Part shown: one piece after another, positions 24,271 to 26,580 of the stretch
Layout of the letters: every line of letters starts with the position of its first letter
Numbering within the stretch: the first letter of the stretch is position 1
Source of the DNA: Candidatus Eremiobacteraceae bacterium
Lineage (GTDB): Bacteria; Vulcanimicrobiota; Vulcanimicrobiia; Eremiobacterales; Eremiobacteraceae
Assembly (NCBI GenBank): GCA_035710745.1
Contig: DASTCX010000004.1
Span: forward strand, 1-64,000
DNA length: 64,000 nucleotides
Direction of reading: 5' to 3'
Program-made: the position numbers and the translations under genes
Notes under the pieces: model-generated
The model's database searches: none
What the model saw: only the letters and a program-made list of their open reading frames with translations
What the model was told of the DNA's origin: nothing

Positions 24271-25455
24271 CTACATCGCTGCCCTGGCTGTCGCCGCTCG
24301 GACGCTCCCGTCCGCGCCGGCGAGGGTGCGCGCTGTCGCGGCACTCGCCGATCCCAGCGCCACTCTCACGCCCAAGTCTCCGAGCGCCAACTCCAGCGCT
24401 CCCATCGCGCCGATCAGATCGCGCTCTGCGAGCGCTCCCATGTTGCCGATGCGGAAGATCTTGCCTTCCACTTGTTGTTGTCCGCCGCCGACGACGACGC
24501 CGTAGCGCTCTCGAAGGCGGCTGAGAAGTGCCTTGGCTTCGACACCCGCCGGCACTCGGACGGCCGTGACCGTCTGCGAGTACCAACGCGGCTGCGCGAA
24601 GAGCGTCAGCCCCACCGCCATGCACCCGGCACGGACGGCAGAGGCATAGCGCGCATGCCTCGCATGCGCGGCTTCGCGGCCTTCCTTCAAGTAGTTATCG
24701 GACGCCCGTTCGAGGGCCGTTAGTATCGGGACAGGGGGTGTCCAGGGGGTCGCGCCGTCGTCGGCTGCTTTGCGCGCCTTGAGAAGGTCGAGGTAGAAGC
24801 GCGGCATCTTGGCCTGCTCGGCCGCTTGCCACGCGCGGTCGCTCAGGACGACGATCGCCGCGCCGGGAGGGGCCGCGAGCGCCTTTTGCGAGGCGGTCGC
24901 AAGCGCGTCGATGCGCCATTCATCCGTACGCAGCTCGACCGCGCCGGCGCCGCTGACGGAGTCGACGACCGTGAGAGCCGGATGATCGCCTTTCGCCTTC
25001 ATGAGCGCTTCGAGGTCGTTGCCGACGCCGGTCGACGTCTCGTTGTGAGTGATGAGGATGCCCTTGATCACACCCGCCGTATCCGCTCGAAGCCGATCGC
25101 GAAGCCGCTGTGGGTCGTTGCCCCAACCCCATTGCTCGGACATCGATTCGACGTCGCCGCCGTATGCTCGCGCGATCGCGGCGAGCCGATCGCCGAACGA
25201 TCCGACACTCAGGCTGAGCAGCTTGTCGCCGGGAGAGAACAGATTGACCACGATCGACTCGAGCGCGCCGGTCCCGGAGCTTCCGAGCAGCACGATGCGC
25301 TTTGATGTTTGGAGAATCTCGCGCAAACGCTCGTAGAGCCGTTCGTATAAGGCGCGCGCGCGTGGGCCGCGATGGTTTTGCATCGGCGCGGCAGCGGCGG
25401 CGAGCACGTCTTCGGAAACGGCGACCGGACCCGGAATCAACAAGATCTCTGACAC
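24271..25455 (-). CDS. Class V aminotransferase (alanine-glyoxylate aminotransferase-like)
   Basis: A 394-residue PLP enzyme. It opens LLIPGPVAVSEDVLAA, has the GSSGTGALESIVVNL cofactor-binding stretch, the ILITHNETSTGVGND loop, and the PLP-lysine segment LATASQKALAAPPG. This matches the AGXT/serine-pyruvate branch that moves amino groups onto glyoxylate or pyruvate. The exact substrate is unknown. The GTG at 25455 follows GAGAGGTG. The frame remains open far upstream (to 26343), but only antisense to selD. Its 5' end lies 81 bases from selD and is transcribed divergently, with no obvious functional link. Confidence 0.87.
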   Translation of the reverse strand: MSEILLIPGPVAVSEDVLAAAAAPMQNHRGPRARALYERLYERLREILQTSKRIVLLGSSGTGALESIVVNLFSPGDKLLSLSVGSFGDRLAAIARAYGGDVESMSEQWGWGNDPQRLRDRLRADTAGVIKGILITHNETSTGVGNDLEALMKAKGDHPALTVVDSVSGAGAVELRTDEWRIDALATASQKALAAPPGAAIVVLSDRAWQAAEQAKMPRFYLDLLKARKAADDGATPWTPPVPILTALERASDNYLKEGREAAHARHARYASAVRAGCMAVGLTLFAQPRWYSQTVTAVRVPAGVEAKALLSRLRERYGVVVGGGQQQVEGKIFRIGNMGALAERDLIGAMGALELALGDLGVRVALGSASAATARTLAGADGSVRAATARAAM

Positions 25456-25536
25456 GTCGTTCGCACCTCTCGCGCGCGCATCGTTCTTGTCCGCACCAAA
25501 GGTCGCCTTCGTCGGCGCACCAAAGCAATCGACGTC

Positions 25537-26580
25537 ATGTCTGCATCCGACATCGCTCGCCTGACGCACGTCGTCGACTGCGCAGGCTGAGCGTCCAAAA
25601 TGGACGCGGGCGTCCTCGCGCAGGTCCTGCGCGTCATGCCGCCGCCCGATGATCCCAACGTCCTCGTCGGATTCGAAACGTCCGACGACGCGGGCGTCTA
25701 TCGCATCGCGTCCGATACCGCTCTCGCGCTGACGGTCGACTTCTTCACGCCGATCGTCGACGACCCGGCGACGTTCGGCGCGATCGCCGCCGCCAACTCG
25801 CTTTCCGATCTCTACGCCATGGGTGCGAAACCGGTCGTGGCGCTCGCGGTGGCGGCTTTCCCCGAGAGGGGACTCGACAAGAGCGTTCTCGGGGCGATCT
25901 TCGCCGGCGGCGCTGCGAAAGCGCGCGAAGCGGGGATCGCGATCATCGGCGGTCACACGGTGAAGGACCCGGAGCCGAAGTACGGCCTTTGTGCCATCGG
26001 CCTCGTCCACCCAGACAAGATCGTGCGCAACTCGACGGCGCGGGCCGGCGACGCTCTCGTCTTGACGAAGCCGCTCGGTACCGGCATCATCACGACGGCT
26101 CGGCGGCGCGATGCGATCGGCGATGCGGAACTCGCGGCGGCTGTGGAAAGCATGACGACGCTCAATCGTGCGGCTTGCGAGGCGATGCTCTCGGTCGGCA
26201 TCGATTCCGCGACCGACGTCACCGGCTTCGGCTTGGTCGGCCATCTGCGCGAGATGATCGACGGGTCGGGCGTCGGCGCTTCGATCGATGCTCGTTCGGT
26301 GCCGCTCCTCGCCGGCGCGCTCGAACTCGCCGCGCTCGGTCACGCGCCCGGGGGCTCGAAGTCGAATCTCGAACGCGCGCTCGCGCTGGGCTCGTCATTC
26401 GAATCCGTGCCCGAGGCGCTTCAGCTCGTTCTTTGCGACGCACAGACGTCCGGCGGCTTGCTCATCGCGGTGCCCGAGGAACGCACCGGTGCGTTGCTCG
26501 ACGAACTCGTCCGTGGCGGTGTGAACCGAGCGGCCGTCGTCGGCCGTATCACGAGTGAGCAAGGCCTGAAAGTGCGCTAG
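25537..26580 (+). CDS. selD: Selenide, water dikinase, itself a selenoprotein (UGA-Sec)
   Basis: SelD makes selenophosphate from selenide and ATP. From ATG 25537 the frame reads [17 protein letters not shown], then TGA at 25588-25590, then [13 protein letters not shown]. The TGA aligns exactly with the catalytic Cys of the E. coli enzyme (GAG-C-GCK), and the essential Lys follows three residues later. Translated through UGA it gives 347 residues, with [23 protein letters not shown] and [11 protein letters not shown] as in the family. A hairpin at 25617-25633 supports Sec insertion. A start at 25600 would delete the active site. Selenocysteine here implies SelA, SelB and tRNA-Sec elsewhere in the genome. 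Confidence 0.9.
25591..25633 (+). promoter_or_regulatory. Candidate bacterial SECIS element of selD
   Basis: Two stems follow the UGA. GCGTCC-AAAAT-GGACGC (25591-25607) is directly adjacent. The second, CGCGCAG-GTC-CTGCGCG (25617-25633), has a 7-bp stem and an apical loop starting with G about 33 bases after the UGA. The second fits the bacterial SECIS model as I recall it (loop 16-37 bases downstream, G in the first loop positions). Confidence 0.65.

Follow-up and report, generated by a model that had tools for sequence, protein, structure and literature searches.

A selD gene with an in-frame UGA predicted to encode selenocysteine in an Eremiobacterota-like bacterium

Results and discussion

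The selD locus and its active site

The window, by which we mean the whole stretch of 64,000 nucleotides analyzed here from the start of contig DASTCX010000004.1 (assembly GCA_035710745.1), contains a selD gene whose reading frame is crossed by a single TGA codon (Table 1). The ATG at 25537 and the TGA at 25588 share a frame in which this TGA is the sole internal stop, and read-through translation gives a protein of 347 residues ending at 26580, confirming the proposal of the first-pass annotation that a single SelD of the same length as the E. coli protein (347 aa) is encoded. The read-through product matches the TIGR00476 profile over positions 1-310 of 311 with 368.6 bits (curated cut-off 125), and aligns over residues 6-333 with E. 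coli SelD (3u0o; E 1.8e-75). In this alignment the TGA-encoded residue 18 is equivalent to Cys17 and Lys21 to Lys20, placing the TGA on the catalytic Cys/Sec with the conserved Lys three residues later, as had been claimed from the letters alone. Both sequence marks of SelD membership are present, namely the full-length match above the cut-off and the Cys/Sec of the N-terminal loop followed by Lys three residues on. The start at 25537 is supported by the homologues, which begin at the matching residue, and the 17 codons preceding the TGA are conserved in relatives (RLTH..xCAG). A plain ORF search begins the gene at the ATG at 25600 and returns 326 residues that lack the catalytic residue, just as was expected of routine annotation; the reading given here restores the active site that is lost when the gene is shortened in this way.

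The divergent neighbor of selD (window 24271-26343, minus strand) resembles BhcA and PhnW and is a class V aminotransferase by a match of 312 bits, which falls short of the curated cut-offs; its open frame continues antisense through selD.

Table 1. Features of the selD locus and of the selenocysteine genes elsewhere in the genome (window coordinates unless a contig is given)
Feature	Position	Strand	Evidence
selD, selenide water dikinase, predicted Sec at residue 18	25537..26580	+	TIGR00476 match, 3u0o alignment, homologue starts
TGA, predicted Sec18, equivalent of E. coli SelD Cys17	25588..25590	+	3u0o alignment; codon across the phylum
Codon of conserved active-site Lys21 (E. coli Lys20)	25597..25599	+	alignment to 3u0o
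Predicted bacterial SECIS hairpin, 7-bp stem CGCGCAG/CTGCGCG, loop GTC	25617..25633	+	fold; covariation in Sec forms
selA	C15:11177-12517		516 bits
selB	C15:12538-14406		310.5 bits summed
tRNA-Sec, anticodon tca	C15:47023-47112		74.5 bits
FdhA, formate dehydrogenase alpha subunit, UGA at catalytic Sec	G000:C4:103682-105544 (locus L205, 647-2779)	-	NNVDSCNRT-U-HAPSVVGL

A SECIS-like hairpin that accompanies the UGA across the phylum

The hairpin downstream of the UGA (CGCGCAG-GUC-CUGCGCG; z -3.1) has a loop that begins with G, and lies exactly where the first-pass annotation had pointed to a bSECIS-like element about 33 bases past the UGA. It satisfies all four published bSECIS constraints (PMC13188914), with 7 base pairs, a GUC loop, a UGA-to-loop spacing of 33 nt and a folding energy of -11.1 kcal/mol. 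A scan of the window at the Rfam gathering thresholds gave no matches. When selD alone was synonymously recoded, 121 of 4000 recodings folded as well and 1240 of 20000 kept all 7 pairs; in the window sequence by itself the hairpin exceeds chance expectation to only a moderate degree, and the comparative evidence for it is much stronger than the single-sequence evidence. A second hairpin directly after the UGA (GCGTCCA-AAA-TGGACGC) was set aside as it is not generally kept in relatives.

The comparative counts of codons and hairpins are based on 89 SelD copies of the phylum in which the site was inspected. Alignment with these homologues, as had been recommended, reveals either TGA (62 copies) or a cysteine codon, TGC or TGT (27 copies), at the active site, such that the window selD has an in-frame UGA at the position of the homologues' redox Cys, a criterion for bacterial selenoproteins. 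All 7 stem positions are paired in 46 of the 62 Sec forms versus none of the 27 Cys forms, in which the hairpin is mostly lost (Mann-Whitney p 2e-13 for stem pairing, kinship ignored). Among the TGA copies, a Gln codon CAG is matched by a Leu codon CTG, and CAA by TTG, in 47 of 52 cases, a coupling that is silent in the protein and preserves the pair (counts 34/4/1/13; Fisher p 5e-8, kinship ignored). Upon correction for kinship the codon coupling is left with 5 independent row pairs, of which about 4 point the expected way and none the opposite way (sign test p about 0.06-0.5), too few for significance alone. The structure counts exceed those of shuffled and slid controls in 15 representatives. 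Across the phylum, the selD hairpin is clearly conserved and covarying in the TGA copies.

Selenocysteine machinery and a second UGA-containing gene

The genome is a 41-contig draft of an Eremiobacterota-like MAG (2.97 Mb, 98% complete), and Candidatus Eremiobacterota MAGs are among its nearest named loci. The suggested check for selA, selB and tRNA-Sec recovered all three, with selA adjoining selB and the tRNA-Sec on the same contig, and their co-occurrence in one genome is a further criterion for bacterial selenoproteins. The window's own contig also carries the formate dehydrogenase gene of Table 1, so the recommended search for other UGA-containing genes likewise succeeded; a plain gene finder cuts this gene in two, and a hairpin about 20 nt past its UGA has a GGUCU loop, as does that of E. 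coli fdhF. Together, the three machinery components, with the UCA anticodon of the tRNA, and the UGA-containing FdhA support the earlier claim that the organism makes selenocysteine, and this poorly studied lineage appears equipped to use it in both SelD and formate dehydrogenase. The idea that Sec is used in SelD only was rejected because of the UGA-containing FdhA. A covariance model of the SelD UGA and hairpin, searched against the genome, retrieved only selD itself (E 2.6e-17; next match E 0.13), and none of the weaker matches that were inspected places a TGA within a convincing open frame.

Neither a second SelD above the family cut-off nor a selenouridine synthase (TIGR03167) was found in this genome, a draft at 98% completeness in which small gaps are possible; hence, selenophosphate here appears to be dedicated to Sec synthesis.

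Interpretation of the UGA codon

In favor of a sequencing or assembly error for TGC or TGT at 25588, several relatives of the same family have TGC at this codon. Close relatives with Cys had indeed been named in advance as a sign of such an error, and G020, G021 and G023 of the same family are Cys forms, yet TGA occupies exactly this codon in G026, a genome of the same genus with 90% protein identity, and in 60 other SelD copies from the phylum, and the downstream hairpin accompanies TGA and not Cys. With the same codon in G026, an error is unviable as an explanation and we regard it as extremely improbable. No more credible is a true stop, leaving either a pseudogene or a shortened product restarted at 25600; an in-frame ATG is available there, but the codons ahead of the TGA are conserved in relatives, the rest of the frame is intact, and the genome offers no other SelD above the cut-off although selA, selB, tRNA-Sec and the UGA-containing FdhA need selenophosphate. 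As TGA is present in the same genus and in 62 of the 89 copies, and as the hairpin is kept in the TGA copies, sequencing error and pseudogene are for practical purposes excluded. The UGA might alternatively be read by another route, either reassigned throughout the genome, for instance to Trp, or passed over by read-through that lacks specificity; nothing specific favors this, and it is rendered highly implausible by the tRNA with a tRNA-Sec fold and a UCA anticodon, the conservation of the SECIS hairpin, the Cys rather than Trp borne by SelD homologues at the site, and the other genes of the window, which are normal under table 11.

We propose, with little reservation, that the window selD is a functional selenophosphate synthetase gene and that selenocysteine is inserted at its UGA (25588). 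Under this proposal, SelA would convert Ser-tRNA-Sec to Sec-tRNA-Sec with selenophosphate made by SelD itself, SelB would deliver the Sec-tRNA-Sec to the ribosome on binding the hairpin, and Sec18 and Lys21 would together make up the part of the SelD active site that handles selenium. Sec incorporation at 25588, SelD catalysis and the autocatalytic loop of the first-pass annotation, in which SelD would depend on its own product, are predictions from sequence.

Relation to known systems

Sec-containing SelD is textbook knowledge and the second most widespread bacterial selenoprotein. The window protein resembles the Sec-containing bacterial SelD/SPS2 proteins in having a predicted Sec at the equivalent of Cys17, within the N-terminal flexible loop, in the Lys three residues on and in the bSECIS directly after the UGA; the mechanism is no different, and only the host differs, belonging to an Eremiobacterota-like lineage. 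It shares its length and fold family with E. coli SelD, which has Cys17 in place of the predicted Sec. The Cys-form SelDs of its relatives are homologous, and differ by the Cys codon and the mostly absent hairpin, with most of their genomes keeping selA. The window selD is a widespread, long-known gene form, ordinary for selenocysteine-using bacteria, and no new kind of system. A literature search yielded nothing linking Eremiobacterota with selenocysteine, the matches for WPS-2 and selenoprotein being livestock studies; this silence is weak evidence of novelty, and for the lineage only.

Exchange of Sec and Cys in the phylum

A quick tree of the 89 SelD proteins implies 8 Sec/Cys exchanges, 5 of which are forced by strongly supported branches. 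Two Cys forms, from G020 and G023, are among the closest relatives of the window SelD by path, and most genomes represented by a Cys-SelD row (25 of 27) retain selA. A change from Sec to Cys in SelD has been inferred previously, sometimes with SECIS-like remnants after the Cys codons (2006, PMC1794560). We consider it somewhat probable that SelD of this phylum switched between Sec and Cys repeatedly, mostly keeping the Sec machinery, with the hairpin tracking the Sec form. If so, the phylum would provide a natural experiment on self-dependent selenophosphate supply, setting advantage against mere inheritance, and its repeated exchanges would be of use for comparing how Sec decoding is maintained, the principle itself being already known.

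In G134, a sequence matching selA (C21:69523-70815) contains a single internal TGA and adjoins a TGA-containing selD; this TGA could be an error, reflect gene decay or encode Sec. G120 has two SelD copies (L159, L178), one with Cys and one with TGA, and no selA was found in that draft. Two SelD copies also occur in G073 (C12:160578-161597 and C12:115090-116067), each matching with one internal TGA.
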